The notes under the pieces are model-generated. The model saw only the letters and a program-made list of their open reading frames with translations. It had not been told where the DNA came from and searched no databases. A stretch of 64,000 nucleotides of DNA from an uncultured Bradyrhizobium sp. (GTDB lineage: Bacteria > Pseudomonadota > Alphaproteobacteria > Rhizobiales > Xanthobacteraceae), in assembly GCF_947648125.1 (NCBI RefSeq), contig NZ_CANSMR010000017.1, positions 1 to 64,000 of the forward strand, in the 5' to 3' direction. Below, in pieces: positions 19,966 through 42,501 of the stretch. Position 1 is the stretch's first letter, and the number at the start of each line of letters is the position of its first letter. Both the position numbers and the translations under genes were made by a program.

Positions 19966-21288
19966 TCACTTCTCGCGGAACGAGCGCATGAACTGGTCGC
20001 TCAGCGGCTTCATCAGGTACGACAGCATGGTGCGGTCGCCGGTCTGGACGAAGGCTTCGACCGGCATGCCGGGGATGATTTTCACCTCGCTGCCGAGGCG
20101 CGCGACCTCTTCCGGCGGCATCGAGACGCGGATCGTGTAGTAGCTCTGCCCGGTGCGCTGGTCGGTGTTGACGTCGGCGGAGACGCGGGTGACCACGCCG
20201 TTCAGCTCCGGCGTGGTGCGCTGGTTGAAGGCGGAGAGCCGCAGCACGGTCTTCTGTCCGACCTGGAGCTTGTCGATGTCCTGCGGATTGACCTTGGCCT
20301 CGACCGACAAATCATCGGCCCTCGGCACGATCATCATGATGGCATCGCCCGCGGTGACGACTCCGCCGACCGTGTGGACGGTGGATTGCAGCACCACGCC
20401 GTCCTGCGGGGCGCGGATATCGATACGGCGGAGCTGGTCTTCGGCGGTCACCTTGCGCTCGACGAACTCGCCGATCTTGTCGTTGGCCTCGCGCAGATCC
20501 TTCGAGACCTCCGAGAGCATGTCCTTGTCGACCTGGATGATCTGCAGCTCGGTCTCGGTGATCTTGCCCTTGGCCTGGGCGCGCGAGGCAATGTACTGCG
20601 CGCGCTCGCCGGAGAGCCGCGCCGCGTCGCGCTCCAGCGTGGTGAGACGCGTGAGCTGCACCAGATGCTGCTCATAGAGCTGGCGGACACCGACCAGCTC
20701 CTGCTGCACCAGCGCGATCTCCTTGTCCTTGGAGGTTTCCTGCGCCTGCAGGCCGGCGATTTCCTCGTTGAGCTGGGTGACGCGTTCGCGCAGCTGCGCC
20801 TTCTGGCCGGCGCGGCCGTTGACGCGGACCTCGAACAGCTTGGTTTCGCTTGCCATGATGTCGCGGACGTCGGGATCCCTCGCCTGCTCGGTGAGCTGCG
20901 GCGGAAACGCGATCTTGTCGAGGCCCTGCTGTTCGGCCTGGAGCCGGGCCGCACGCGCATAGAGACCGTTCAGCGTCTTGACCACGATCGCAAGGCTCGC
21001 CTTCACGACGGTCTCGTCGAGACGCACGACAACGTCGCCCGCCTTGACCGTGTCGCCGTCGCGCGCCAGGATTTCGCCGACGACGCCGCCGGTCGGATGC
21101 TGCACCTTCTTGACGTTGGTATCGACCACCACCGAGCCCGGCGCGATCAGCGCGCCCGAGATCGGCACCGTCGCAGCCCAGCCGCCGACGCCGCCGCCCA
21201 GGACCAGGACAACGGCGAGACCGACCACGAGATGCTTCCTGATCGAAGCATGTGCGTTGCGCGGCTGATCGGTCATGCGGCCGCTCAT
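19966..21288 (-). CDS. prsE: Type I secretion membrane fusion protein (HlyD/PrsE family)
   Basis: A 440-residue periplasmic adaptor. It has one N-terminal transmembrane segment (VVGLAVVLVLGGGVGGWAAT), a lipoyl-like half (VQHPTGGVVGEILARDGDTVKAGDVVVRLDE), long coiled-coil helices at about residues 130-300, the second lipoyl half and a beta-barrel end. It bridges the ABC exporter encoded by the overlapping upstream gene and an outer-membrane TolC-type channel, which is not encoded in the window. Its start overlaps the end of prsD by 4 bases. In rhizobia PrsDE exports RTX and adhesin-type proteins. Confidence 0.88.
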   Translation of the reverse strand: MSGRMTDQPRNAHASIRKHLVVGLAVVLVLGGGVGGWAATVPISGALIAPGSVVVDTNVKKVQHPTGGVVGEILARDGDTVKAGDVVVRLDETVVKASLAIVVKTLNGLYARAARLQAEQQGLDKIAFPPQLTEQARDPDVRDIMASETKLFEVRVNGRAGQKAQLRERVTQLNEEIAGLQAQETSKDKEIALVQQELVGVRQLYEQHLVQLTRLTTLERDAARLSGERAQYIASRAQAKGKITETELQIIQVDKDMLSEVSKDLREANDKIGEFVERKVTAEDQLRRIDIRAPQDGVVLQSTVHTVGGVVTAGDAIMMIVPRADDLSVEAKVNPQDIDKLQVGQKTVLRLSAFNQRTTPELNGVVTRVSADVNTDQRTGQSYYTIRVSMPPEEVARLGSEVKIIPGMPVEAFVQTGDRTMLSYLMKPLSDQFMRSFREK

Positions 21289-23036
21289 GACTTGGTCGCC
21301 CCCGCATCGGCGACGATCTTGATCGGCGTGGGCGCTGGCGGCGCGACGCGCTGCAGCACCTGCGCCAGCACGGTCTCCTTCGGCCCGAAGGTCTGCATGC
21401 GGCCGTCCTTGAGCACGAGCAGCTGGTCAACGCCCTCGATGCCGATCGGCCGATGTGCGACCACGATGACGACGGCGCCGCGCTCGCGGGCGCCACGCAC
21501 CGCGCGGGTCAGCGCCTCGTCGCCTTCGCTGTCGAGATTGGAGTTCGGCTCGTCCAGCACGATCAGGAACGGATTGCCGTAGAGCGCACGCGCCAGCGCC
21601 ACGCGCTGTGCCTGGCCGGCGGAGAGCGCAGTGCCCTGCTCGCCGACCTGGGTGTCGTAGCCCTCGCGCATCTTGATGATCATCTCATGCACGCCGGCCT
21701 CCTTGGCCGCCGCGATGATGCCGTCGGACTTGGCGTCGGGATCGAAGCGGCAGATGTTCTGCGCGACCGTACCGGCGAACAGTTCGACGTCCTGCGGCAA
21801 ATAGCCGACATGGCGGCCGAGTTGGTCCGACGACCACTGATCGAGCGCGGCACCGTCGAGCCGTACCTTGCCGCGCACCGGCACCCAGACGCCGACCAGC
21901 GCCCGGATCAGCGACGACTTGCCGGACCCGCTCGGGCCGATCACGCCGACGCCGCTGCCGGCTTCGACGGCGAAGGTGACGTCTTGCACGATCGGGCGCT
22001 GGTCACCCGGCGCAACCATGGTCACCGCCTCGACCGAGAGCTTCTTCTGCGGCGCCTGCAGCAGCGTCTGCTCCGGCCGCGCCGGAATCTGCTGCAGCAG
22101 GCGGTTGAGGCGCTGCCAGCTCTGCCGCGCGGCGACGAAGCTCTTCCAATGCGCGATCGCGAGATCGACCGGCGCCAGCGCCCGCGCGCTCAGGATCGAG
22201 CCGGCGATGATGATGCCACCGGTGGCCTCCTGGTGGATCACGAGATAGGCACCAACCGCGAGCACGGCGGACTGCAGCATCATGCGCAGCACCTTGGCGA
22301 CCGCACCGAGCCCGCCGCTCACGTCGCTCGCGCGCTGGTTGCCGGACAGATACTCCTCGTTGGCTTCGTTCCAGCGCTTGTTCATCCGCCCGGCCATGCC
22401 CATCGCCACGAGCACTTCGGCGTTGCGGCGGCTGGAGGCGGCGAGATCGTTGCGCCGCGCCGCGAGCGACATCGCTTCCCTGGCCGGCGTGCGCGACATG
22501 TATTCGGTGATCAGCGTCAGCGTCACCAGGATGATGGCGCCGACCAGCGCCGTGACGCCGAGCAGCCAATGGAACGCAAAGCAGATCAACATGTAGAACG
22601 GCAGCCAGGGCAGGTCGAAGAACGCGCCGGGACCCATGCTGCCGAGGAAGGAACGCACATTGTCGAGGTCGCGCAGCGGCTGCAGGCCCTCGCTGCGATT
22701 GCCGGCCATCAGCGGCAGCCGCACGATGGTGTCGAACACCCGCGCATTGAGCGCTTCGTCGAGCGAGGTGCCGACGCGGCCGAGGATCCGTCCGCGCAGC
22801 AGATCGAGCACACCCTGGGCCATGTAGAGGGCCGCGGCGATGACGACGAGGCCGACCAGAGTCGGAACGCTGCGGCTCGGCAGCACCCGGTCGTAAACTT
22901 GCAGCATGAACATCGAACCTGTCAGGTACAGCAGGTTGATCATGCAGCTGATGAGGCCGACGCCGATGAAGGCACTGCGGCATGCGCGCAGCGCCTCAGC
23001 CAGTTCGGAACGCCGGACAGCGGGCGCGACTGCCAT
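21285..23036 (-). CDS. prsD: Type I secretion ABC exporter (PrsD family)
   Basis: A 583-residue exporter with an N-terminal six-helix membrane domain (first helix near AFIGVGLISCMINLLYL) and a C-terminal ATPase: Walker A IGPSGSGKSS, signature LSAGQAQRVALARAL, Walker B LIVLDEPNSNLD. It lacks an N-terminal C39 peptidase domain, so its cargo has an uncleaved C-terminal signal. ATG 23036 is used; an upstream ATG at 23054 is equally open. No cargo gene lies beside it. The nearest cargo-like protein in the window is the VCBS adhesin at 36991-41154. Confidence 0.88.
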   Translation of the reverse strand: MAVAPAVRRSELAEALRACRSAFIGVGLISCMINLLYLTGSMFMLQVYDRVLPSRSVPTLVGLVVIAAALYMAQGVLDLLRGRILGRVGTSLDEALNARVFDTIVRLPLMAGNRSEGLQPLRDLDNVRSFLGSMGPGAFFDLPWLPFYMLICFAFHWLLGVTALVGAIILVTLTLITEYMSRTPAREAMSLAARRNDLAASSRRNAEVLVAMGMAGRMNKRWNEANEEYLSGNQRASDVSGGLGAVAKVLRMMLQSAVLAVGAYLVIHQEATGGIIIAGSILSARALAPVDLAIAHWKSFVAARQSWQRLNRLLQQIPARPEQTLLQAPQKKLSVEAVTMVAPGDQRPIVQDVTFAVEAGSGVGVIGPSGSGKSSLIRALVGVWVPVRGKVRLDGAALDQWSSDQLGRHVGYLPQDVELFAGTVAQNICRFDPDAKSDGIIAAAKEAGVHEMIIKMREGYDTQVGEQGTALSAGQAQRVALARALYGNPFLIVLDEPNSNLDSEGDEALTRAVRGARERGAVVIVVAHRPIGIEGVDQLLVLKDGRMQTFGPKETVLAQVLQRVAPPAPTPIKIVADAGATKS

Positions 23037-23185
23037 AAAAACCGATCTCTGCAAATCAAAAGAGTTACGTGATCACCACGTTGTATAGACGTTTGCGACC
23101 ACCGTCCATTTCAAGTCGCGCCAACCAAAGCATGGTTCGCGGCCTATTTTTGTGACTGCACAGACAGTTGACGGAATAATTTGCG

Positions 23186-31008: not shown

Positions 31009-32661
31009 TCACGGCACGACCGAGACCGGCGAGAAGTCGACGAACCAGCTCTTCGGCTGCACAAAGCCCTTGACCTTCGGGCTCATCGCGCGCGGCGCAA
31101 CGTCGTGAGCGACGTAAAGGAACGCCGCATCGTCGACCGAGGCGGCGTGCAGTTCGGCGAGCGCGGCGTCGCGCGCCGCCGGTTCGAAGGTCTGGCGGGC
31201 CTTCTTCACCAGCTCATCAAACTTCGGATTGTTGATGAAGCCCCAATTGTTCGAGACCGGCGGCGCCATGCCCGATTGCAGGAAGCGCACCAGCGCGAAG
31301 AACGGATCCATCGCCGCATAGGTGACGTTGGTCGCGTTCGATCCGTTGGCCGACGGATCCTTGGCGCCGCGCCGCCAGTTGGTGAACAGCGTATTCCACT
31401 CGATGACGTCGAGCTGCACATCGAAATAGCACTCGGCCAAAGCCTGCTGCAGATACTCGTTCATCGGCAGCGGCAGCATTTGGCCCGAACCTGATGCCGA
31501 GGTCTGGATCTTGACCGTCAGCTTCTTGTTGGGACCGAAGCCGGCCTCCTGCATCAGCTTTTGCGCCGCCGGCTTGTCATACTTGATCTGGAAGGTCGGA
31601 TTGCCGCGCCAGGGATGGCCGGACTCGAACGTGCCGGTGGCCGGCACCATCAGCCCCGCGAGCAGGCCGTCGCGCAGCCCTTCGCGATCGACGCAGAGGT
31701 TGGCGGCCTTGCGGACGCGGATGTCATTCCACGGCGAGCCCTCGACGCGGGAGAACTGCCACGGCCAGACATGCGGCTCCTCGTTGGAATAGAGATTAAA
31801 GCCACGCTGCTTGATCTCGGGCAGCGCGTCGGGCGCCGGCGCCTCGATCCAGTTGACCTGCCCCGACAGCAGCGCCGCAGTGCGCGCGTTGGCCTCGGGC
31901 ATCGGCAACAGCACCATCTTGTCGGTCTTCGGCACGCGGGCCTTGTCCCAGTAGTTCTCGTTCTTCACCAGCTCGAGCCGCTCGCGCGGCGTGAAGCTCG
32001 ACATCTTCCACGGGCCGGTGCCCGAAGCGTCCTTGGCGAACGCCGCCCAGGCGGCCTGCGACTTCGCCTTGGCATCGGCACCTTCGGCCTTGTCGTAGAA
32101 CTTCTGCCACTTGGCCGGGCTCGCCATGAACAGATTGGTGAGGTTGATCGGCAGGAAGCTGTCCGGCTCCTTGGTGGTCAACTCAACCGTCATGTCGTCG
32201 ATCTTGCGCGCCGACACCAGCGTCGGCATCCGCGAGGCGGTGACGCCGACCTGGCTCGCGTCGTACTGCGGCGCGTCCTGCTTCAGTACCTTGTCGACGT
32301 TCCAGACCACCGCGTCGGCATTGAACGGCGAGCCGTCGTGAAAGCTGACGCCGGGACGCAGCTTGAAGACCCACTTGGTCTTGTCGGCGTCGTCGACCTT
32401 CCACTCGGTGGCGAGGCCCGGAATCATCGCGCTCGCCTTGTCCGACGAGGACAGGTCCCACATCGTCAGCGCGTCATACATCGTGAGCCCGGTGAAACGG
32501 TTGCCCTCAAAACCCTGGTCGGGCTGCCCGAGCGTGCGCGGAATATCGGCAGCCGTCATGCCAATACGCAGCACGGTCTCGGCGCTGGCGATAACAGGCA
32601 CACACGCGGCCATCGCAAGCGCCAGCATGATCGCCGTCGCATTGGTCTTCCTGTTACGCAT
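31009..32661 (-). CDS. ABC transporter substrate-binding protein (SBP family 5), copy 1
   Basis: A 550-residue periplasmic binding protein of the peptide/nickel/opine family. It has a signal peptide (MRNRKTNATAIMLALAMAACVPVIASA), then ETVLRIGMTAADIPRTLGQPD and the family motif VFKLRPGVSFHDGSPFNADAVVWNVDKVL. AAGGGG precedes ATG 32661; the open frame starts earlier. It is the first gene of the importer operon and binds the substrate for the DppB/DppC-type channel. The divergent gene at 32872 is a clear paralogue. Confidence 0.9.
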   Translation of the reverse strand: MRNRKTNATAIMLALAMAACVPVIASAETVLRIGMTAADIPRTLGQPDQGFEGNRFTGLTMYDALTMWDLSSSDKASAMIPGLATEWKVDDADKTKWVFKLRPGVSFHDGSPFNADAVVWNVDKVLKQDAPQYDASQVGVTASRMPTLVSARKIDDMTVELTTKEPDSFLPINLTNLFMASPAKWQKFYDKAEGADAKAKSQAAWAAFAKDASGTGPWKMSSFTPRERLELVKNENYWDKARVPKTDKMVLLPMPEANARTAALLSGQVNWIEAPAPDALPEIKQRGFNLYSNEEPHVWPWQFSRVEGSPWNDIRVRKAANLCVDREGLRDGLLAGLMVPATGTFESGHPWRGNPTFQIKYDKPAAQKLMQEAGFGPNKKLTVKIQTSASGSGQMLPLPMNEYLQQALAECYFDVQLDVIEWNTLFTNWRRGAKDPSANGSNATNVTYAAMDPFFALVRFLQSGMAPPVSNNWGFINNPKFDELVKKARQTFEPAARDAALAELHAASVDDAAFLYVAHDVAPRAMSPKVKGFVQPKSWFVDFSPVSVVP

Positions 32662-32871
32662 CTGAGCAACCCCTTCGAAGTCTGGTGACGTTTTGGTGAT
32701 TATTTCTTGGGCAAGCGTATGCAATGCCTGTGCCAAGGGGAATAGTTCTTCAGCAAATAACCGCTGGGCGCGTCATTTCTTCCCACCTCGCGCCTGAAGC
32801 GTGCGAAGATGCCTATTCTGGCATCATGCTTGCAAGATTTGGCCCCGACTTCCCACCAACGGAGCCTTCTT

Positions 32872-34479
32872 ATGCGCGCGCGCAATTCGATCCTGACGGC
32901 GGCAATGGCGCTCGCCCTGACCGCGGGCTGGCCGGCCAACTCAGCGCGAGCAGAGTCCATTGTGCGCTACGGCATTTCGATGGCCGACATTCCGCTGACG
33001 ACCGGCCAGCCCGATCGCGGCGCCGGCGCCTATCAGTTCACGGCCTACACGATCTACGATCCGCTGGTGGCCTGGGAGATGGACGTTGCCGACCGGCCGG
33101 GCAAGCTGGTGCCCGGGCTTGCGACCGAATGGAAGGTCGATGACAACGACAAGACCAAATGGCGCTTCACCCTGCGCAAGGGCGTGAAATTCCACGACGG
33201 CAGCGACTTCAACGCCGACGCGGTGATCTGGAATCTCGACAAGGTGCTGAACGACAAGGCACCGCAATTCGACAAGCGGCAGAGCGCGCAGGTCAAGACC
33301 CGGCTGCCCTCGGTCGCGAGCTACGCCAAGATCGACGACCAGACCATCGAGATCACCACCAAGACGGTCGACTCCTTCTTCCCTTACCAGATGCTCTGGT
33401 TCCTGGTCTCGAGCCCCGCGCAATACGAGAAGCTCGGCAAGGACTGGGACAAGTTCGCCAGCCAGCCCTCCGGCACCGGCCCGTTCAAGCTGACCAAGCT
33501 GGTGCCGCGCGAGCTCGCCGAGCTGACCAAGAACCCGGACTATTGGGACAAGAAGCGGCTGGCGAAGGTCGACAAGATGATCCTGATCCCGATGCCGGAG
33601 GCGCTGACCCGCACCAACGCGCTGCTGGCCGGCCAGGTCGACCTGATCGAAACGCCGGCGCCCGATGCCGTGCCGCAGCTCAAGGCCGCCGGCATGAGGA
33701 TCGTCGACAACGTGACGCCGCATGTCTGGAACTATCATTTGAGCGTGCTGCCGGGCTCGCCCTGGACCGACATCCGCCTGCGCAAGGCGCTCAACCTCGC
33801 GATCGACCGCGATGCGGTGGTTGGCCTGATGAATGGCCTCGCCAAGCCGGCCAAGGGCCAGGTCGACCCGTCGAGCCCGTGGTTCGGCAAGCCGAGCTTC
33901 GAACTGAAATACGACCTCGCGGCCGCGAAGAAGCTGGTGGAGGAAGCCGGCTATTCCAGGGACAAGCCGCTGAAGACGACCTTCATCATCGCCCAGGGCG
34001 GCACCGGGCAGATGCTGTCGCTGCCGATGAACGAATTCCTGCAGCAGAGCTTCAAGGAGATCGGCATCGATATCGACTTCAAGGTGGTCGAGCTCGAGAC
34101 ACTCTATTCGCACTGGCGCAAGGGCGCCGCCGACGAGATGAACGCCGGCATCACCGCCAACAACATCGCTTATGTCACCTCGGATCCGCTCTACGCTATC
34201 GTGCGGTTCTTCCATTCCGGCCAGGTGGCGCCGACAGGCGTCAACTGGGGCGGCTACAAGAATCCGAAGGTCGACGCGCTGATCGACGAGGCCAAGCAGA
34301 CCTTCGACAGCGCCAAGCAGGATGCGCTGCTGGCGCAGGCGCACGCACTGATCGTCGACGATGCCGCGCTGGTGTGGGTGGTGCACGACACCAATCCGCA
34401 CGCACTGTCGCCGAAGGTGAAGACCTTCGTGCAGGCGCAGCACTGGTTTCAGGATCTGACGCAGATCGGGCTGGAGTAG
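32872..34479 (+). CDS. ABC transporter substrate-binding protein (SBP family 5), copy 2
   Basis: A 535-residue paralogue of the divergent binding protein. It has a signal peptide (MRARNSILTAAMALALTAGWPANSARA), then YGISMADIPLTTGQPDRG and FTLRKGVKFHDGSDFNADAVIWNLDKVL. Both share the unusual tag GQPD and a long stretch around ATEWKVDDxDKTKW, so they arose by duplication. CGGAGC precedes ATG 32872. It has no permease genes of its own and probably feeds the same channel with a second ligand. The 210-base divergent gap should contain both promoters. Confidence 0.9.
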   Translation: MRARNSILTAAMALALTAGWPANSARAESIVRYGISMADIPLTTGQPDRGAGAYQFTAYTIYDPLVAWEMDVADRPGKLVPGLATEWKVDDNDKTKWRFTLRKGVKFHDGSDFNADAVIWNLDKVLNDKAPQFDKRQSAQVKTRLPSVASYAKIDDQTIEITTKTVDSFFPYQMLWFLVSSPAQYEKLGKDWDKFASQPSGTGPFKLTKLVPRELAELTKNPDYWDKKRLAKVDKMILIPMPEALTRTNALLAGQVDLIETPAPDAVPQLKAAGMRIVDNVTPHVWNYHLSVLPGSPWTDIRLRKALNLAIDRDAVVGLMNGLAKPAKGQVDPSSPWFGKPSFELKYDLAAAKKLVEEAGYSRDKPLKTTFIIAQGGTGQMLSLPMNEFLQQSFKEIGIDIDFKVVELETLYSHWRKGAADEMNAGITANNIAYVTSDPLYAIVRFFHSGQVAPTGVNWGGYKNPKVDALIDEAKQTFDSAKQDALLAQAHALIVDDAALVWVVHDTNPHALSPKVKTFVQAQHWFQDLTQIGLE

Positions 34480-34663: not shown

Positions 34664-36898
34664 CTATTTCGTCGTCAACGCAAAGGCGCCGTCCCAATCG
34701 TCCGGCGGCGGCTCCTTCTGGAAGGCGCGGATCCGTACCTCGTAGAGGCGGTAGAGATATTGCAGCGTCTGCGCCTCGTCGGTCTTGCGGCCGCGCTCGA
34801 TCGCGGCGAGCGCGCCGTCCCAATCGCGGCCGCGGTAGCAGGCGAGCATCTCGATGGTCAGGTTGCGCAGCCGCTGGAAGCGGCCGGAATTCGCCACGTC
34901 CTCGCGCCCGGCGATCGCGTAGATCACCTCGGGCTCCTTCTTGCCCTTCACCATGATGAAGTCGAGTTCGAGGATCGCGAACTTCTCCTTCACCGCGAGC
35001 GCGGTCTTCGATCCCACGATGATCGGGAAGCCGTACTCCTTGGACTGCCCCTCCAGCCGCGCCGCCAGATTGACGCTGTCGCCGAGCACCGAATAATTGA
35101 ACTTGAGATCAGACCCCATATTGCCGACCACGCAGGTGCCGGTGTTGAGGCCGACGCCGATGTTGAGCGGCACATAGACGTGGCCACCTTCCTGCGCTTC
35201 CTGTTCGCGCTTGCGGTTGAGGTCGCCGACGTGCTGCAGCATGTCAAGCGCGGCGTCGCAGGCGTTGAGCTGGTGCTGCTTGTCGTCGAGCGGCGCATTC
35301 CAGAATGCCATGATGGCGTCGCCCATGTATTTGTCGATATACCCTTTGCGGGCGAGGATCGCGTTGGTGAGCGGCGTGAGGAAACGGTTCATCAGCGCCG
35401 TGAGGCCCTGCGGATCGCGCTTGTAGGTTTCCGAGATCGAGGTGAAGCCGCGCATGTCCGAGAACATGATGGTCATCTCGCGCTCTTCGCCGCCGAGCAC
35501 GAGCCGCTCCGGCGATTGCGCCAGCTGCTCGACCAGCGCGGGCGACATGTACTGCACGAATTGCGACCTGATCTGCCGGCGCTGCTGCTGTTCGCGCACG
35601 AAGGCGGAGAAGATCAGGGTGAGATAGATTGCCGTGGTCGACATCAGCGGATAAGTGAAATCGATCAGGAGCCGGTGCTGGGAATAGAAATACCAGGACG
35701 TGCCGGTCAGCACCGAGGCGAACATCCCGCCGACAACCACGAGCGTGATCGGACCGAACTTCGGCGCGAAGGCGATGACCAGGAGCCCCATGATCAGCGC
35801 AGCGAAGAACTCGATGCCGATGCCGTAGTTCGGCTGCGAAACGACGTCGCCGGTCAGCGCGCTCTCCAGCACTTGGGCGTGGACCTCGACGCCGGGCATC
35901 GCCGGCGTTACCGGCGTGGTCTTGATGTCGTTCAGCCCGACCGCTGAGGTGCCGATCACGATCAGCTTGCCGGCGATCCTGTCCGGCGGCACCCGCCCAT
36001 CCAGCACGTCGACGGCGGAGACGTAGATCGAGGGGTCTCGGCGCGCGTAGTGGATCCAGAGCTGGCCGTGGAGATCGGTCGGGATCGCAAAGCCCCTGAG
36101 GCCCAGGCTCTTGATACCGGCCTTGTCGGCCTTGATCAGGATCGTGCCCGAGCCGCTCGCCACCCGCAGCATCTCGAAGCTCAGCGACGGCATGGTGATG
36201 CCCTGCGCCACCATGATCATCGGCACCCGCCTGACGATGCCGTCGCGTTCCGGCCTGATCGTGAACAGGCCTCGCCCGGCCGCGGCCTCCTCCAGCAGCG
36301 GCACGTTGCGCAGCAACCCCGGAAACATGAACATGAAGGGCTGCGGCTCTTCGCCGAGCGTCGCTAGTCCGGTGACCGGGAGCTTCTCGTTAAGGTCGGC
36401 GCGCACGTTGGGCCCGCCGGATTCGCCGAGCACCACGCGCGAGTTCTTGATGGCGTCGGCCAGGATGCTGTCGTTGCTCGGCAGCTGCCGCAGCCTGGCG
36501 CGCATCTCCTCATCGAGGCTGCTGAACGTATCGGCCGCGATATCGGGGTTGAGGCGGTCGGGCTCGGAGAACACCGCGTCGAACGCGATCACCACGGCGC
36601 CGAGCCGGGTGAGGTTGATGACGATGTCGGCAAGCCGCGTCCGCGGCCACGGCCATTGTCCGAGCCGGGGGTCAGCGAGGCTCTTCTCGTCGATATCGAC
36701 GATGGTGACGGGCCGCGCGGTCTTCTGGCGCGGTTCGATCACCTGGAACGTGTCGAACGTCCTGACGCGAAGCTCCTGCACCGGAGCCGGATCCGCGATC
36801 CGCAGCGCGGCAAAGCCGATCAACAGCGCCACGCAGGCCAGCCGCGCATAGCCGAAGCGCCGTCCGAACCACCTTCGTATCGCCTTCAGCCGTCTCAT
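34664..36898 (-). CDS. CHASE2-domain receptor adenylate cyclase
   Basis: A 744-residue membrane receptor that should make cAMP. After one membrane helix (about 18-34) comes an extracytoplasmic CHASE2 domain (about 45-350), then three helices (about 358-435) and a class III cyclase domain (about 470-660). All catalytic residues are visible: metal Asp481 and Asp527, adenine-selecting Lys523 and Asp607, and Asn610/Arg614 in SVNLAARLE. The Lys/Asp pair predicts ATP, not GTP, as substrate. It lies 92 bases after the FecR/VCBS protein gene in the same direction, so they are probably one operon. What the CHASE2 domain senses is not known; the FecR-type neighbour is a candidate. Confidence 0.9.
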   Translation of the reverse strand: MRRLKAIRRWFGRRFGYARLACVALLIGFAALRIADPAPVQELRVRTFDTFQVIEPRQKTARPVTIVDIDEKSLADPRLGQWPWPRTRLADIVINLTRLGAVVIAFDAVFSEPDRLNPDIAADTFSSLDEEMRARLRQLPSNDSILADAIKNSRVVLGESGGPNVRADLNEKLPVTGLATLGEEPQPFMFMFPGLLRNVPLLEEAAAGRGLFTIRPERDGIVRRVPMIMVAQGITMPSLSFEMLRVASGSGTILIKADKAGIKSLGLRGFAIPTDLHGQLWIHYARRDPSIYVSAVDVLDGRVPPDRIAGKLIVIGTSAVGLNDIKTTPVTPAMPGVEVHAQVLESALTGDVVSQPNYGIGIEFFAALIMGLLVIAFAPKFGPITLVVVGGMFASVLTGTSWYFYSQHRLLIDFTYPLMSTTAIYLTLIFSAFVREQQQRRQIRSQFVQYMSPALVEQLAQSPERLVLGGEEREMTIMFSDMRGFTSISETYKRDPQGLTALMNRFLTPLTNAILARKGYIDKYMGDAIMAFWNAPLDDKQHQLNACDAALDMLQHVGDLNRKREQEAQEGGHVYVPLNIGVGLNTGTCVVGNMGSDLKFNYSVLGDSVNLAARLEGQSKEYGFPIIVGSKTALAVKEKFAILELDFIMVKGKKEPEVIYAIAGREDVANSGRFQRLRNLTIEMLACYRGRDWDGALAAIERGRKTDEAQTLQYLYRLYEVRIRAFQKEPPPDDWDGAFALTTK

Positions 36899-36990
36899 AC
36901 CGTCTGGATATCACGCGCGGAGGGTTGTTCCAATCGAGCAGACGTTGCGCAATGCAGGATCCAGTCGGCTTTTCAGGAGGCCGACGCCCA

Positions 36991-39900
36991 TCACGTATAA
37001 TGAATGATGAAGTCGTTCTGGGACAAACTCGCCTTCGAGACATTGTGCAACGTGATCGTATCGGCACTGTCGACCGTGATCAGCGTATCGGCCGAATTGG
37101 TCGGCGACGTCGCCACATGCTGATCGAACCAGCTGCTGAAGGTGCTTGTCGAGACGACCGTCGACAGGTCGATCTGGTCCTGGCCCGGCGTAAAGTTCAG
37201 GATCGTGTCGTGGTTGAAGTTCGGCGCAAACACGAACTTGTCCTGATAGCCCGATCCGAAGAACACGTCCTTGTCGCTGGTGCCCGTCAGCGTCACCGGC
37301 TGAGACGGATTTTGCTGGACATTGAAGATCAGATTGACCGCGTCGCTCGCGCCATGGCCGTCGGTCACGGAGAGCGCTATCTTGTCGGTCGCCGGCGGGG
37401 TCTGGCCCGGATCGTAGACAAGGCCCGGCGACCCGAGCGCGGTGTTGATAGCCGAGAGATGGCCGAGCAGCGCCGGCGGCGCGACGCTGCTGCCCGAACC
37501 GGGGTTCGTCGCGGCAGCCAGGGTGAAGTTCTCGTTGGCGCCGGCATCGACATCCGTGACCGTCAGCCCGGAGATCGTTTCGGTCCCATTGGGATTTTCG
37601 GTGATGCTGATGTTGTCGGTATGGATCACCGGCGCGTCGTTGGCGCCGACCACATCGACCGTCAGCGTCGCAGTCCCGGTCGCGCCATGGGCATCGATGG
37701 TCTCGACGGTGAACGTGTCGGCATAGGTGCCCTTGGCCAGCGCATTGATCGCGGCGGAGTCGGGAACGTAGCTGTAAGTGCCATCCGGATTAACCGTGAG
37801 CGAGCCGTAGAGGCCCGCGATCGAGGAGTTGACCGCGACGTGGTCCGAATTGAGGGCGGCATAGGTCAGCGTCGCAGTCTCGCCATCGTCGACGTCATGG
37901 CCGTGCAGCGCGCCGGTGAGCGGGCTGAACGTGTCGTACGCAGCGGTATCGGTGAGCGTGCCGGCGTTGACGTCAGCCAGCGTCGGTGCGTCGTTGGCGC
38001 CGTTGATCGTAATCGTCACGGGCGTGGTGATGACGCCGCCATGATGGTCATCGATCTGGACCGTATATTTCAACGTCAGCGTCTCGCCGACGGCGAGGTA
38101 GTCGAAATTCTGGTCCGCAGCCGAGAACGTCCAGGTGGACGATCCAATCCCGCCATGGGTCGCATCCGTCAACGTGCCCAGCGACAGCCAGTTCAGGATG
38201 GTGGACTGGTCCTCGGGCAGGCCCGTGGTCGCGCCGGACTCGGCCACACCGGTGATGCTCACCGTGTGGGTGTCGCTGAGGTCCACATCGGTGAACGTCA
38301 CGGTGCCCGATGCGCTGTCCGGCTTGGATGAACCGGTCGTGTCGGGCTGCTCGGCGATGGTGGCCGCCTGCGCTTGAGACGTGACGGTCGGCGCATCGTT
38401 GCTGCCGGTAATCGTGATCGTCACCGGTTCGCTGATCACGCCACCATGATGGTCGTCGATCTTGACTGTGTAGGTCAGCGTCAGCGTCTCGCCGGCGGCG
38501 AGATAATCGAAATTCTTGTCCGCGGCCGAGAAGGTCCAGGCCTGCGATCCGTTCACATGGCCGGTCGAATCCGTCAGCGTCCCCAGCGACAGCCAGTTCA
38601 GGACCGTGGACTCGTCCTCAGGCAGGCCTGTGGTCGTGCCGGATTCCGCGACGCCGGTGATGGACACGGTATGGGTGTCGCTGAGATCGACGTCGGCAAA
38701 CGCCACCGCGCCTTGAGCCACGTCCGGCTTGGTCGAGCCGGTCTCCCCGATCGCCTCGGTGATCGAGGCAGTCGGCGGCGCCGATGTGAATGTCGGAACG
38801 TCGTTGGTGCCGGTGATGGTGATCGTGACCGGCTGGGTGACGACGCCGCCATGGTGGTCGTCGACCTGGATCAGGTAGGTCAGCGTCAGCTTCTCGCCGG
38901 CCGCCAGATAGTCGAAATTCTTGTCGGCGGCCGAGAACGTCCAGGCGCTGGATCCGGTGACGCCGCCGGTCGAATCCTTCAGCGTGCCGAGCGACAGCCA
39001 GCTCAGGATCGTCGCCTGATCGGGGAGCCCGGTGGTCACGCCCGTTTCGGTGACACTGGCAACGCTAACGCTGTGGGTGTCGCTGAGATCGACATCGGTG
39101 AAGGTCACGGTGCCGGACGCGGTATCGGGATTCGTCGAACCGGTTACGCCCTCGGCCTCGGTGATGGCTGCTGCCTGGGTCGGCGAGGTAATCACCGGCT
39201 TGTCGTCGGTGCCGACGATCGTGATCGTGACGGGGACCGTGACGACGCCGCCATGATGGTCGTCGATCTGGATCGTGTAGATCAGCGTCAGGGTCTCGCC
39301 GGCAGCGAGATAATCGAAACTCTTGTCGGCGGCCGAGAACGTCCAGGAGCGCGATCCCATCACGCCGTCGGTCGAATCGGTCAGCGTGCCCAGCGACAGC
39401 CAGCTCAGCATGGTGGCCTGGTTGGGAATTCCGCCAGTGAAGCCGGTCGCGGTGACGCCGGTGATGGCGACCGTGTGGGTGTCGGTCAAATCGGCATCGG
39501 TAAACGTCACCGTGCCATGCGCCGTATCGTGCACGGAGGAATTCGTCGTCCATGGGAGTTCGGTGATCGAACCGACCTGCGCCGAGGACGTCACGACCGG
39601 CGTGTCGTTGGTGCCGGTGATCGTGATGGTGATAGTCTTGAATGCGGTCTCGTTGCTCAGCGCGTAGTTGTTGTCGACGCGCACCATATAGGTGAGCGTC
39701 AGCGTTTCGCCGGCGGCGAGGAAGTCGAAGGCGCCGTCGGCAAGGCTGTAGGTCCAGGTTGCCGAGCCGATGTTGCTGTTCAGCGGATTGGGGTCGAGCA
39801 GCACCGGGACCTCGACCGCCGCGATCGCCGCCTGTTCCGCCGCCGTCAGCGACGAGGTGACGTCGTTGCCGCTGGCGTCGTGGTAGCTGAACGTACTGAA

Positions 39901-41154
39901 GTTGATCGTTGCAGTCGGCTTGTCGCCGAGATTGACGTCCACCCAGGTGATCTGGCCGGTCACCGTGTCGGGCAGCGTGCTATGGGTCTGTCCGGGCTGT
40001 TCGGTGAACGCCGCATTCTGTGTCACGACATGCGGCGCCCCGGCAATGTGGTCGGACTTGATGGGCGCAGCCTGCGATCCGGGATTGTTGGTCAAACCGA
40101 GCAGAAAGTTGATCGGCACGAAAGCTTCGCCGGTCGCGAGCTTCAGGCCGATCGTGACCGGGACGACGCTGTCCGTGAAGTTCGTCGTGAGCTTGGTATT
40201 GGGATTCGAATTGTCGGTAAACTTCAACGCGAAAACGTCGGAGATGAGCTTCTGCGCATCGGTCGACAGTTGCGCCGACGAGACGAAGCTGACGCTGCCC
40301 TGGCCGTTGACGATGGTCTGGGTGCCGGCCTGATCGACGGTCGCGATCGGATTGAGCGTCGTCTTGTCGAACAGGATGTAGGAGCCGGTGCTGCCATCGG
40401 GCTCGACCAGCACCTGGAATTTGGCCGGCGGCACACCACCCGCGCCCTGCACGTCGAAATCGATCTCGACCAGCACTGCGGTGCCGCGGATGCCCATGGT
40501 CGCAACCGGCGTATCGACCTTCATGTCGCCATGCTTGGCGGTCGCGCCGGCAACGAATGAGATCGTGCCCGAGACGAGGCTCATCAGCGACGAGTTGCTC
40601 GACCCGTTCGGGTCGTAGATCATCTCGTTCAGCACCATCTTGGCGTTTGGTCCGAGACCGAACACGGTGCCGTCGATGAAGGTAATGCCGAGCGTCGAGT
40701 CGCCGCCGGACTGCACCACGTCACCCTTGTTGACGTTGTCGCCCTGGTTCAGGACGATCGCGACACCATTGCGGATCGCGGTGGCGTTGCCCGCCAGCTT
40801 GGTGACGTGGCCGATGACCTTCGCCGGTTCCACCGCGCCGCCGGCCTGGGCATATTGGGTGTGGCCGGTGAGCGCGGCGACGAGGTCGCCGGTGAGATGC
40901 GCGCCTTCAGGCGACGCCAGGGCCGCGTGTTTCTCACCCTTGAAATAGTCGTGCAGGACGAGTTCCCGGTCGTCCTTCGAGATGACGAGATCGAGCCCGG
41001 TCCGCTTGAAGTCGCCGGTGAACAGCAATTGCCCGTCGTCGACGGTGATCGCGCCGGGCGGAGTGTGGGTGGAAACGCTGTCGACATGCACCGATCCACG
41101 GGCATAAGCGTCCGTGTTCGGCAAATAGCCGTCGAATTTCTCGACAAAGTTCAC
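36991..41154 (-). CDS. Large FecR/VCBS-repeat secreted adhesin-like protein
   Basis: A 1387-residue surface protein. Residues 110-230 resemble a FecR-type beta domain (IGHVTKLAGNATAIRNGVAI, DTPVATMGIRGTAVLVEI). Residues 375-515 are a divergent VCBS repeat. Residues 516-1052 hold four tandem VCBS repeats of about 134 residues with the recurrent core WTFSAADKNFDYLAAGETLT. Two cadherin-like domains follow (1053-1290). The C-terminus (1291-1387) has a hemolysin-type GTSDKDVFFGSG element and an uncleaved type I secretion-like end. There is no N-terminal Sec signal. The start is GTG 41154 with a weak ribosome-binding site, so a later start is possible. A LapG-like protease gene is divergent and an adenylate cyclase gene follows. 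Confidence 0.85.
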   Translation of the reverse strand: MNFVEKFDGYLPNTDAYARGSVHVDSVSTHTPPGAITVDDGQLLFTGDFKRTGLDLVISKDDRELVLHDYFKGEKHAALASPEGAHLTGDLVAALTGHTQYAQAGGAVEPAKVIGHVTKLAGNATAIRNGVAIVLNQGDNVNKGDVVQSGGDSTLGITFIDGTVFGLGPNAKMVLNEMIYDPNGSSNSSLMSLVSGTISFVAGATAKHGDMKVDTPVATMGIRGTAVLVEIDFDVQGAGGVPPAKFQVLVEPDGSTGSYILFDKTTLNPIATVDQAGTQTIVNGQGSVSFVSSAQLSTDAQKLISDVFALKFTDNSNPNTKLTTNFTDSVVPVTIGLKLATGEAFVPINFLLGLTNNPGSQAAPIKSDHIAGAPHVVTQNAAFTEQPGQTHSTLPDTVTGQITWVDVNLGDKPTATINFSTFSYHDASGNDVTSSLTAAEQAAIAAVEVPVLLDPNPLNSNIGSATWTYSLADGAFDFLAAGETLTLTYMVRVDNNYALSNETAFKTITITITGTNDTPVVTSSAQVGSITELPWTTNSSVHDTAHGTVTFTDADLTDTHTVAITGVTATGFTGGIPNQATMLSWLSLGTLTDSTDGVMGSRSWTFSAADKSFDYLAAGETLTLIYTIQIDDHHGGVVTVPVTITIVGTDDKPVITSPTQAAAITEAEGVTGSTNPDTASGTVTFTDVDLSDTHSVSVASVTETGVTTGLPDQATILSWLSLGTLKDSTGGVTGSSAWTFSAADKNFDYLAAGEKLTLTYLIQVDDHHGGVVTQPVTITITGTNDVPTFTSAPPTASITEAIGETGSTKPDVAQGAVAFADVDLSDTHTVSITGVAESGTTTGLPEDESTVLNWLSLGTLTDSTGHVNGSQAWTFSAADKNFDYLAAGETLTLTYTVKIDDHHGGVISEPVTITITGSNDAPTVTSQAQAATIAEQPDTTGSSKPDSASGTVTFTDVDLSDTHTVSITGVAESGATTGLPEDQSTILNWLSLGTLTDATHGGIGSSTWTFSAADQNFDYLAVGETLTLKYTVQIDDHHGGVITTPVTITINGANDAPTLADVNAGTLTDTAAYDTFSPLTGALHGHDVDDGETATLTYAALNSDHVAVNSSIAGLYGSLTVNPDGTYSYVPDSAAINALAKGTYADTFTVETIDAHGATGTATLTVDVVGANDAPVIHTDNISITENPNGTETISGLTVTDVDAGANENFTLAAATNPGSGSSVAPPALLGHLSAINTALGSPGLVYDPGQTPPATDKIALSVTDGHGASDAVNLIFNVQQNPSQPVTLTGTSDKDVFFGSGYQDKFVFAPNFNHDTILNFTPGQDQIDLSTVVSTSTFSSWFDQHVATSPTNSADTLITVDSADTITLHNVSKASLSQNDFIIHYT
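37999..39609 (-). repeat. Four tandem VCBS coding repeats, about 400 bp each
   Basis: Within the adhesin gene, four units begin at about 39609, 39210, 38808 and 38403 and end at 37999. They are similar in DNA as well as in protein, for example around the codons for DDHHGGV and WTFSAADKNFDYLAAGE. Such arrays can gain or lose units by recombination. Confidence 0.8.
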
Positions 41155-41160
41155 TGCGGA

Positions 41161-41400
41161 TCACCGCACGAAGGTTAATATTGGTAGAATATCCGAATGA
41201 TTACGCCTGCATATCATCGGATAAAGCTTCGCGAAACCATCCTGTGCTTTCGCGAGGTGCTCTGATTGCGCGGTTTGACTGGGTGTGACTTGGCTCACGC
41301 TCTCATGAGTCATGTATTTGCGACTCACATGACGGTACCATGAGATGGGATTCAAGCCAAGATGGGTACTGAGCCACGTATTCGTGGTATTCACTGACAT
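41161..41400 (-). CDS. Possible small ORF upstream of the adhesin gene, 79 aa
   Basis: An open frame from ATG 41400 (MSVNTTNTWLSTHLGLNPISW...) ends 6 bases before the adhesin start. It has lower GC and less typical codons than nearby genes and matches no family I know. It overlaps one CRP-like box, so it may be leader RNA and not a protein. An upstream ATG at 41442 is also in frame. Kept at low confidence because it would explain the lack of a good ribosome-binding site for the adhesin through coupling. Confidence 0.2.
   Translation of the reverse strand: MSVNTTNTWLSTHLGLNPISWYRHVSRKYMTHESVSQVTPSQTAQSEHLAKAQDGFAKLYPMICRRNHSDILPILTFVR
41284..41299. promoter_or_regulatory. CRP-like box 1
   Basis: TGTGACTTGGCTCACG matches the cAMP-CRP/FNR-type dyad TGTGA-N6-TCACA in 9 of 10 conserved positions. 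It lies 130 bases upstream of the adhesin start and recurs almost unchanged at 41468-41483. The adenylate cyclase in the same operon makes a cAMP-dependent site plausible. Confidence 0.5.
41306..41327. promoter_or_regulatory. Short inverted repeat next to CRP-like box 1
   Basis: TGAGTC and GACTCA form a 6-bp perfect dyad with a 10-base spacer, and a second dyad GTCATG/CATGAC overlaps it (41309-41333). It could bind a further regulator of the adhesin operon or fold in its leader RNA. Confidence 0.3.
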
Positions 41401-41467
41401 TTCTCTACTTGCCTTTATTTCCCCGCAGCCCCGAGAGGGCATTTGACCCCAATTTTCCGGCTAAAGC

Positions 41468-41483
41468 TGTGACCTGGCTTACA
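41468..41483. promoter_or_regulatory. CRP-like box 2
   Basis: TGTGACCTGGCTTACA has the same TGTGA-N6-TCACA layout with one mismatch (TTACA). It shares 13 of 16 bases with box 1, including most of the spacer. It lies 184 bases from box 1 and 266 bases before the LapG-like start, within the shared divergent region. Confidence 0.5.
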
Positions 41484-41748
41484 AATCGCAGCTATCCCGT
41501 GCGCAGATCGGCCGGGTTAACCAGAAGGCAAGGATGAGGCATTTCGCGGTGGAAAAAGGTTCGCTGGTCCGTTTCACAAATCGGTAAAGTTTTCGGGACC
41601 CGGACCACACGCCCTTTAGGCTCCCGCCCGGATTCCCCACATCTTAAGTTGATTCGAAGGGATCGTTGGCCATGCTGCCGGCATGAAACGATCCGGTCGC
41701 GTGCGCGGTGCAGTATCCACCCGTCGATGAGCGGACAGGGGGTGTCAC

Positions 41749-42501
41749 ATGGGTAACTCGCTTCGCTCGTTTGCGCTGCGCGCCGTCATGCTGGGCTTCG
41801 GCCTGGCCCTGGCCGCGCCGATTGCCGAGCTCAATGCCGCCTCGGTGCTTTCGCCCGGCCCGGCGACCCTCCTCAGAAAATCGACCGAGCCGTTCGGCCT
41901 GGCGACCAGCCTGCTTGCCGGCGGCGGCCTGCGCGACAAATGGCTCGGCGTGCAGCGCCAGCTTGCCGACGAATTGGAGCAGCTCGCAGCCTGCGAGAGC
42001 GACCGTGCGGGATGTGCGTCGCCGGAGGCGCTGCGGTTCCTGGCGATCGTCGATGCCGGACGCGCGCGCACCGGCCGCGCCCGTTTCGGCGAGATCAACC
42101 GCGCGATCAATCTGGCGATCCGCCCGGGCAGCGATCTTGCGACCTATGGCGAGCCCGACGTCTGGGCCACGCCGCTCGCCACCTTTGCCCGCGGCAGCGG
42201 CGATTGCGAGGACTACGCGATCGCGAAATTCGTGGCGCTCGGCAAGGCCGGCGTCGCGCCGGAAGATTTGCGCATCGTCGTCATGCATGACCTGCTCGGT
42301 GGCGAAGACCACGCCGTGGTCGCGGCGCGGCTCGACGGCCACTGGCTGACGCTCGATAACCGCCGCATGGCGATGATCGAGGATGCCGACATCAGGAGTT
42401 TTCGGCCGACCTTCGTGATCGACCAGAACGGCGTCAGCCGTTATGTCGATGCGCCGCTCGTCACCGAGGCCGCGTGGCGGCCGGCGGCTGGGGTGAATTA
42501 A
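41749..42501 (+). CDS. LapG-like transglutaminase-fold cysteine protease (BTLCP family)
   Basis: A 250-residue exported protease with an N-terminal signal peptide (about residues 1-30). The Cys-His-Asp triad of bacterial transglutaminase-like cysteine proteases is visible: Cys153 in GSGDCEDYAIAK, His188 in GEDHAVVAAR and Asp203 in TLDNRR. LapG proteases of this family release surface adhesins by cutting near their N-terminus. AGGGGG precedes the ATG by 6 bases. The gene is divergent from the large FecR/VCBS adhesin gene, an obvious candidate substrate. No LapD-type c-di-GMP receptor is encoded in the window. Confidence 0.87.
   Translation: MGNSLRSFALRAVMLGFGLALAAPIAELNAASVLSPGPATLLRKSTEPFGLATSLLAGGGLRDKWLGVQRQLADELEQLAACESDRAGCASPEALRFLAIVDAGRARTGRARFGEINRAINLAIRPGSDLATYGEPDVWATPLATFARGSGDCEDYAIAKFVALGKAGVAPEDLRIVVMHDLLGGEDHAVVAARLDGHWLTLDNRRMAMIEDADIRSFRPTFVIDQNGVSRYVDAPLVTEAAWRPAAGVN

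Follow-up and report, generated by a model that had tools for sequence, protein, structure and literature searches.

We analyzed a 64,000-nucleotide stretch of contig NZ_CANSMR010000017.1 from an uncultured Bradyrhizobium sp. (RefSeq assembly GCF_947648125.1), henceforth referred to as the window. It encodes a large FecR/VCBS adhesin, a CHASE2 adenylate cyclase, and, divergently, a LapG-like cysteine protease (Table 1). A first-pass annotation had identified these three open reading frames (ORFs), and we found each of them in its place and on its strand, with the 92 bases it had noted between the adhesin stop and the cyclase start. The three genes are part of a larger conserved unit that comprises the adhesin, a type I exporter, the CHASE2 cyclase, and the divergent LapG-like protease. 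The exporter pair (19966–23054) lies inside the window on the same strand as the adhesin and the cyclase, and its membership of the unit had been overlooked. We recognized it because its homologues sit within the unit in other genomes. In the window, peptide-transporter, amidase, and thioesterase-type genes separate the cyclase from the exporter, and a 594-bp intergenic region separates the divergent adhesin and protease genes.

Table 1. Position of the unit's genes, adhesin domains, and candidate regulatory boxes in the window
Feature	Position	Strand	Basis and remarks
FecR/VCBS large adhesin	36991..41154	(-)	1387 aa, start GTG; ORF and domain models
Adhesin N-terminal domain 1 (about residues 40-100), then conserved AQA linker	40855..41037	(-)	alignments; limits by eye
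FecR / retention-module-like domain (about residues 112-235, limits by eye)	40450..40821	(-)	PF04773, NF033682, 5ix9_A
CHASE2 adenylate cyclase	34664..36898	(-)	744 aa, 92 bases downstream of adhesin
Divergent class-1 LapG-like C93 cysteine protease	41749..42501	(+)	250 aa; triad C153-H188-D203; signal-peptide-like N-terminus by eye
Type I secretion ABC transporter, PrtD type	21285..23054	(-)	TIGR01842 739.7 bits, cut-off 510.15
Type I secretion HlyD/PrtE-type adaptor	19966..21288	(-)	TIGR01843 396 bits, cut-off 208.65
CRP-like box TGTGACTTGGCTCACG	41284..41299	(+)	1 mismatch; divergent intergenic region
CRP-like box TGTGACCTGGCTTACA	41468..41483	(+)	1 mismatch; position kept in many Bradyrhizobium loci

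The domain models bear out the earlier description of the 1387-residue product as a FecR/VCBS protein. Its FecR domain (PF04773, residues 145–230) scored 31.6 bits against a cut-off of 24, VCBS repeats (TIGR01965) were found in six stretches, and Cadherin_4 and Big_9 domains were also detected. The type I-like C-terminus that had been proposed was matched weakly (Peptidase_M10_C, 18.2 bits, below the cut-off of 20.7); a PrtD/HlyD exporter is present. With an ABC/HlyD exporter linked to it, the protein is classed as a type I secreted adhesin, its secretion and surface display being predictions. The retention_LapA model NF033682 scored 19.6 bits on the adhesin, below its cut-off of 50. A profile of the adhesin N-terminus (A2, 33 sequences) matched PDB chain 5ix9_A at positions 112–184 (E 5.5e-5). 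This chain carries the label 'Antifreeze protein' and is presumably the region by which the Marinomonas primoryensis adhesin is anchored at its N-terminus. A membrane-anchoring domain of such type was first described in that adhesin (PMC13090378; here and below, statements from cited papers refer to the portions of their text available to us).

The cyclase carries a CHASE2 domain (PF05226, 190.7 bits), which is the only PF05226 match in its genome, and a Guanylate_cyc domain (76 bits). By manual inspection of an alignment to a solved adenylate cyclase, residues D481, K523, D527, D607, N610, and R614 are all kept, in agreement with the earlier statement that every catalytic residue is in place; they are taken to have their usual roles, with K/D as the adenine-type pair. 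CHASE2 combined with a class III cyclase bearing adenine-type residues is the make-up of CyaD1-type receptors, and the FecR gene that neighbors those receptors has its counterpart here in the FecR domain inside the adjoining adhesin. No cyclic AMP (cAMP)-binding domain was found in the cyclase by the domain-model search. The CHASE2 sensor has been described as extracellular (PMC5192318). Because the cyclase has this sensor and no cAMP-binding domain, outside-in signaling is favored, and the enzyme's own signal most likely runs from the outside to cAMP.

Conservation of the adhesin, exporter, and cyclase

The wiring of these genes is well supported by comparison with other genomes. Strong cyclase and adhesin matches (E below 1e-240 and 1e-40, respectively, typed by hand from listings, with G064 counted on a contig-end fragment) were scored in 119 genomes of the window's family. 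Both occurred in 34 genomes, the cyclase alone in 5, the adhesin alone in 1, and neither in 79 (Fisher 2.8e-23, without correction for kinship). We then considered loci from 34 of the 39 strong-cyclase genomes, omitting the window's own, G064, G110, G070, and G003. In 30 of these 34 loci, an HlyD gene immediately precedes the cyclase in the same orientation, at a distance of 0–366 bp. The exceptions are L121 and three loci from the same genus as the window; in these three, as in the window, about 10–12 kb separate exporter and cyclase.

The co-conservation of adhesin, cyclase, and protease, on which the first-pass annotation had staked its proposal, holds in a collection scan for the protease, in which the best 80 of 577 relatives were taken as named loci. 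A FecR adhesin was found at 57 of these 80 loci, a CHASE2 cyclase at 49, and both at 46; 14 loci have a distant HlyD (28–30%) instead, and 6 have none of these genes. By title, the linked loci are mostly from Bradyrhizobium, followed by Tardiphaga, Afipia, Rhodopseudomonas, Pseudolabrys, and some bins. The nearest protease among the best 80 is from Bradyrhizobium sp. NAS96.2 and is 95% identical.

Outside the family, we inspected the best 14 of 16 cyclase hits below 1e-200, leaving out G262 and G178. A co-directional ORF that is poor in K/R, rich in G/D/N/T, and adhesin-like lies within 1.5 kb upstream of the cyclase in 11 of the 14 loci, compared with 1 of 20 weaker-cyclase controls picked by hand down the list. 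L240 starts at a contig end, so that its upstream gene is outside view, L242 and L247 have no adhesin-like ORF, and the upstream ORF of L249 is autotransporter-like. One outside-family locus seen whole encodes an outer-membrane channel, an ABC transporter with a C39-like domain, HlyD, a 3762-residue FecR adhesin, and then the cyclase. A second encodes HlyD, a 6877-residue FecR adhesin, a 382-codon ORF, and the cyclase, and in a third (L246) a FecR adhesin precedes the cyclase. In a midpoint-rooted FastTree phylogeny of 60 cyclases, the strong ones form one group whether or not they come from the family, those of the unlinked L242 and L247 among them.

The adhesin, exporter, and cyclase also occur without the protease. 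Three family loci (L124, L125, and L127, from genomes G040, G043, and G091) have all three core genes and no class-1 protease in the genome, and protease-less cores are likewise found outside the family (L239 with L271, and L244 with L272). The protease was seen with the adhesin–exporter–cyclase unit only in the window's family. Since the three genes are found together beyond the family without it, the adhesin, exporter, and cyclase are the core of the system and the protease is an addition that accompanies the core only in this family. In this respect the earlier wording of the proposal is not supported.

Comparison with Lap systems

The protease belongs to the Peptidase_C93 family (PF06035, 59 bits, cut-off 27), and its profile matches the LapG structures 4u65 and 4fgo. 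As had been reported, it is a divergent cysteine protease with a Cys-His-Asp triad: C153, H188, and D203 are invariant across 22 homologues, as are the acidic residues D152, E154, and D155 beside the cysteine, which we take to serve calcium. On the LapG equivalog model NF045674 it scored 61.2 bits against a cut-off of 320; it is a divergent C93 protease and not a LapG equivalog.

Two classes of LapG-like protease can be told apart. Class 1, the window type, accompanies the FecR adhesin and the cyclase. Class 2 proteins are mostly about 330–380 aa and belong to TolC-LapB-LapC-like loci (judged by gene size and reading) with another giant adhesin; the three such loci that were read (L060, L067, and L087) contain no CHASE2 cyclase within the stretch. 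By eye, no LapD was recognized within the stretches of these three loci either. In a FastTree phylogeny of 58 protease sequences, class 2 forms one clade that includes one unassigned sequence, and class 1 is not a single clade, with L072 falling outside. The window's genome has two C93 matches, the window protease and C16:131719, and no class-2 match. The second C93 protein is surrounded by unrelated genes, and relatives occur in the majority of genomes of the family. Among 297 genomes of the order, the class-1 profile found matches below 1e-35 in 16, ten of them within the family; the six outside it all have a distant HlyD (26–33%) and no CHASE2 cyclase within the stretch. At two further loci (L040:9867-11525 and L144:3397-5217), a class-1-like protease is followed by a small FecR protein; L040 has no FecR adhesin adjoining the protease, and L144 has one on the other side.

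The first-pass annotation had implied that the protease may release the adhesin in the manner of LapA. We searched for the canonical LapG motif [TAP]AA[GIV] on both sides of the FecR domain. In a count that 84 loci entered (two of them, L118 and L119, not adjoining a protease), the motif occurred within 170 aa after the RGT motif of the FecR domain in only 2 of 74 distinct adhesins, leaving 72 without it, and the window adhesin lacks it. Of 33 N-termini taken for the linker before the FecR domain, 27 were readable and 6 were not parsed. The motif occurred in 2 of the 27 (L197 and L200) and was missing from 25; AA was present in 19, often within AQAA, and the window adhesin has neither the full motif nor AA. 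Canonical LapG cleavage was rejected as a conserved feature, and because the motif is mostly absent, LapA-type release of the adhesin is a guess. Downstream of the FecR domain, the adhesins share a helix-like stretch whose tail is N-rich (NxNTK/NANP). A strict xNP[KRNQGS] motif, present in 42 of 74 adhesins compared with 0 of 3 protease-less adhesins and 0 of 2 joined loci, was considered as a site and set aside, since these comparison sets are too few and too related; no cleavage site is claimed.

No LapD was found in the window, as had been noted. In the window's own genome, the best match to the LapD model PF16448 scored 22.9 bits against a cut-off of 25, in an ORF that adjoins a response-regulator-like ORF; the model matched 0 of 14 control genomes, so that this negative has no positive control. 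PF16448 was above its cut-off in 31 of the 119 family genomes, including 14 of the 39 with a strong cyclase. Ten of these matches (L221–L230) were read. Five have no GGDEF or EAL motif and a histidine-kinase-like end, three more have a response-regulator-like ORF nearby, and two were not resolved. Since they are mostly histidine-kinase-like, a PF16448 (LapD_MoxY_N) hit is not enough by itself to call a LapD. The LapB-type exporter model TIGR03375 scored 386.4 bits on the window transporter, below its cut-off of 693.1, and the PrtD model (Table 1) fits instead. One outside-family locus has an ABC transporter with a C39-like domain in place of the PrtD type.

We compared the unit with described systems. 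It shares with the Lap system of Pseudomonas fluorescens (LapA, LapG, LapD, and LapBCE; PMC4359373, PMC13090378) a large type I adhesin with an N-terminal retention-like domain, a C93 protease with a Cys-His-Asp triad, an exporter, and a second messenger nearby. Unlike that system, it has an adenylate cyclase in the operon and a PrtD/HlyD exporter, no LapD was found, the TAAG site is not conserved, and the FecR-type domain is preceded by an extra domain. DvhA/DvhG/DvhD of Desulfovibrio vulgaris is likewise Lap-like with a diverged protease and adhesins, but still uses cyclic di-GMP (c-di-GMP), via an HD-GYP receptor, and no adenylate cyclase is described in the available text (PMC13090378). 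The CyaD1-Clr-SMc02177/SMc02178 circuit of Sinorhizobium meliloti shares a CHASE2 cyclase near a FecR-domain gene and a CRP-type box, but the main text available names no adhesin, type I secretion, or transglutaminase, and the FecR gene is dispensable for signal perception (PMC5498481). The BiofilmReg operon of Burkholderia contaminans shares a FecR protein beside a CHASE2 receptor and a link to biofilm; it differs in having a histidine kinase and a response regulator and no cyclase, in a four-gene operon for which the consulted text gives no adhesin (PMC5192318). In Shewanella putrefaciens, cAMP-CRP likewise influences retention of a Lap-type adhesin, but acts via the LapD homologue BpfD and CRP, and no cyclase is among the operon genes named in the text seen (PMC8938473). 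Because the unit fails the tests for a LapG equivalog, a LapD, a TAAG-type site, and a LapB exporter, we did not file it as a Lap system. It is a real conserved system, a variant of Lap-like adhesin control that is built on a CHASE2 adenylate cyclase and is Lap-like in parts. Searches of the open-licence literature returned no paper combining LapG with adenylate cyclase and CHASE2, CHASE2 with type I secretion, or a retention module with FecR, which does not prove absence from print.

CRP-like boxes and a proposed cAMP circuit

With up to one mismatch, TGTGA-N6-TCACA occurs twice in the 64 kb, both times inside the 594-bp region between adhesin and protease (Table 1). The chance mean for the window is 0.93 and 23 of 100 shuffles gave at least two, so that the number of boxes is not unusual in itself, only their place. 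The comparison covered 63 related loci from the best 80 of 577, namely the 60 linked loci and three short contigs (L155, L165, and L186). In 38 of the 63, a stricter box precedes the protease match by 276–358 bp, and it occurs nowhere in their other 1,147,526 bp; shuffled regions had it in 0.14 of 63. The remaining 17 loci (the 14 with distant HlyD, and L211–L213 with nothing linked; 307 kb) contain two matching places. The 38 are Bradyrhizobium by title, with one Bradyrhizobiaceae, and, these loci being related, are not independent events. In the alignment the half-sites are kept and the flanks drift. The own genome has 21 Crp-type HTH matches, 16 of them above the cut-off, and for two CRP-like proteins examined further the best NCBIfam model was CRP, below its cut-off. 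Genes for CRP-like proteins lie at C1:599413 and C23:88160. The relaxed published Clr consensus HGTYHCNNNNGRWACA was rejected as a promoter signal, since it occurs four times in the window, fewer than the 5.83 expected by chance, and not at all between adhesin and protease. Where CyaD1-type receptors have a promoter box at the partner gene, there are thus two near-perfect CRP boxes here and no relaxed-Clr-consensus site. As candidate binding sites, the boxes suggest cAMP-type control of the shared adhesin/protease promoter region. Similar boxes stand beside three weaker-subfamily cyclase genes (L258:9551, L264:9775, and L263:7006, the last about 50 bp before the cyclase ORF); three in 340 kb may be due to chance.

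FecR genes adjoin CHASE2 cyclases also where no adhesin is present. Of 24 weaker-subfamily loci, 4 were not evaluable and 14 carry a FecR ORF no more than 6 kb from the cyclase, a count with no background control; 12 of these ORFs are under 400 aa and 9 are within 150 bp of the cyclase. We also read three annotated plasmid records chosen among 98 matching ones (Ensifer PDNC004, Paracoccus pAMI5, and Ruegeria AD91A); in each, FecR adjoins the cyclase or is one gene removed from it. The FecR protein SMc02177 of S. meliloti is encoded near CyaD1 and is a Clr target (PMC5498481).

The conserved arrangement suggests an adhesion system wired to cAMP in place of the usual c-di-GMP, and we tentatively propose how it could work. 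The exporter would thread the adhesin out, leaving its FecR/retention-like N-terminus in the periplasm. By reading this FecR domain, the CHASE2 part of the cyclase would register the state of the adhesin (its presence, its anchoring, or a pull on it), and cAMP would be made. A CRP-type regulator carrying cAMP may act on the divergent promoter region and tune the adhesin–cyclase and protease genes. The protease may trim or free the anchored adhesin, thereby ending or changing the signal. As a whole this circuit, the reading we favor, is possible, at somewhat less than an even chance; we infer the signal direction, the FecR–CHASE2 contact, and the adhesin cleavage. Of the earlier view that a surface protein is tied to cAMP in a Lap-like way, the boxes make promoter control plausible, whereas the cyclase has no cAMP-binding domain and a LapD-like hold on the protease found no support. 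A more specific version is rather unlikely in its full form. In that version, FecR would be the periplasmic ligand of CHASE2 receptors in general, here built into a type I adhesin; the cyclase would act as a retention sensor that converts anchored adhesin into cAMP; and protease and CRP boxes would close a loop that replaces LapD and c-di-GMP.

Several observations weigh against the proposed circuit. The match of FecR to the retention domain is weak at the sequence level, the classic LapG site is not conserved among the adhesins, and the protease is absent from several core loci. An adhesin-like ORF accompanies 1 of the 20 control cyclases and is missing from 2 of the 14 strong outside-family loci where it would be visible. 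Of the 63 loci, 25 lack the CRP-like box; 12 of these carry Bradyrhizobium titles, and no other named genus seen has it. The box is some 320 bp away from one of the two start codons and some 270 bp from the other. In the stretches available, a FecR ORF was found at a distance of up to 6 kb in only 12 of 31 loci of the family and 1 of 14 outside it; many adhesin N-termini fall outside these stretches. Finally, smc02177 is dispensable for plant signal perception in S. meliloti (PMC5498481), a result that weakens the case for FecR being the ligand of CHASE2 receptors in general, even though three cyclases work jointly in that organism.

The dispensability of smc02177 also bears on a simpler explanation, in which CHASE2 senses an unrelated outside signal and a CRP-type regulator with cAMP does no more than switch the transcription of adhesin and protease, with no physical link between adhesin and cyclase. 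CyaD1 of S. meliloti acts via Clr on the nearby smc02178 and smc02177, neither of which is needed for signal perception (PMC5498481), and the CRP-like boxes in the adhesin/protease promoter region are what such control would call for. We hold this explanation plausible if somewhat doubtful, for it leaves unexplained why one CHASE2 cyclase group sits behind adhesin genes across families and why FecR genes recur beside adhesin-less CHASE2 cyclases. The signal could also run inside-out, as in Lap, with a membrane cyclic nucleotide (cNMP)-binding protein reading cAMP and controlling the protease, in the way that LapD responds to c-di-GMP. Of the 34 family loci, 12 have a membrane-type cNMP-binding protein (PF00027) and 10 an MBL-fold hydrolase no more than 4 kb from the cyclase (the stretch ending at the cyclase in eight of the 34), at times between cyclase and protease (L069, L073, L079, L090, and L134), and the own genome has cNMP-protein homologues at C40:19897 (47%) and C17:66103-66729 (40%). 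These proteins, by eye, have no sizeable periplasmic part for holding a protease, were not found beside the unit in the stretches searched for the other three loci of the window's genus, and occur also in genomes without a class-1 protease (L121, L123, L126, and L130), which makes this arrangement unlikely.

That the protease is a true LapG freeing the adhesin under c-di-GMP control, via a LapD encoded elsewhere, would fit its C93 family, its kept triad, the matching LapG structures, and the PF16448 matches in family genomes. Against it stand the lack of a match above the cut-off in the own genome, the character of the ten matches read, the unconserved TAAG-type site, and the PrtD-type exporter, and we judge it very improbable. 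It is no more credible that the genes merely share a place without a common function. In the window's genus the exporter is indeed about 10–12 kb from the cyclase, with peptide-transporter genes between them in the window, but the genes keep their order across many genera, and several families share the core.

If the proposed circuit is right, adhesion could be sensed and reported in cAMP, the conserved partner of adhesin and exporter being a cAMP-making receptor. Bradyrhizobium, a soil bacterium that colonizes roots and nodules, would gain a defined adhesion-signaling locus. Lap-type systems act through c-di-GMP and a receptor that holds the protease (PMC4359373, PMC13090378), and in Shewanella cAMP-CRP acts on the protease-holding receptor (PMC8938473). 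The ligand of CHASE2 domains was stated to be unknown in 2016 (PMC5192318), and the recurrent FecR–CHASE2 neighborhood offers a concrete candidate partner.

Some neighboring genes were also recorded. Two SBP_bac_5 peptide-binding proteins are encoded on opposite strands at 31009–34479 of the window, with the cyclase on one side and the exporter on the other. The small membrane-type cNMP-binding protein C17:66103-66729 lies 2 kb past the window end and about 24 kb from the protease, its genome's closer homologue being C40:19897. In L295 (2242–6874), L297, L298, L299, and L301, small FecR proteins are divergent from FecR-bearing ORFs of 1200–1650 residues, with no CHASE2 cyclase in the stretch. 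On the Ensifer sp. PDNC004 plasmid (L302), FecR, TPR, CHASE2 cyclase, and MBL-fold genes stand beside an NHLP-type export system with a cyclic nucleotide-binding gene.

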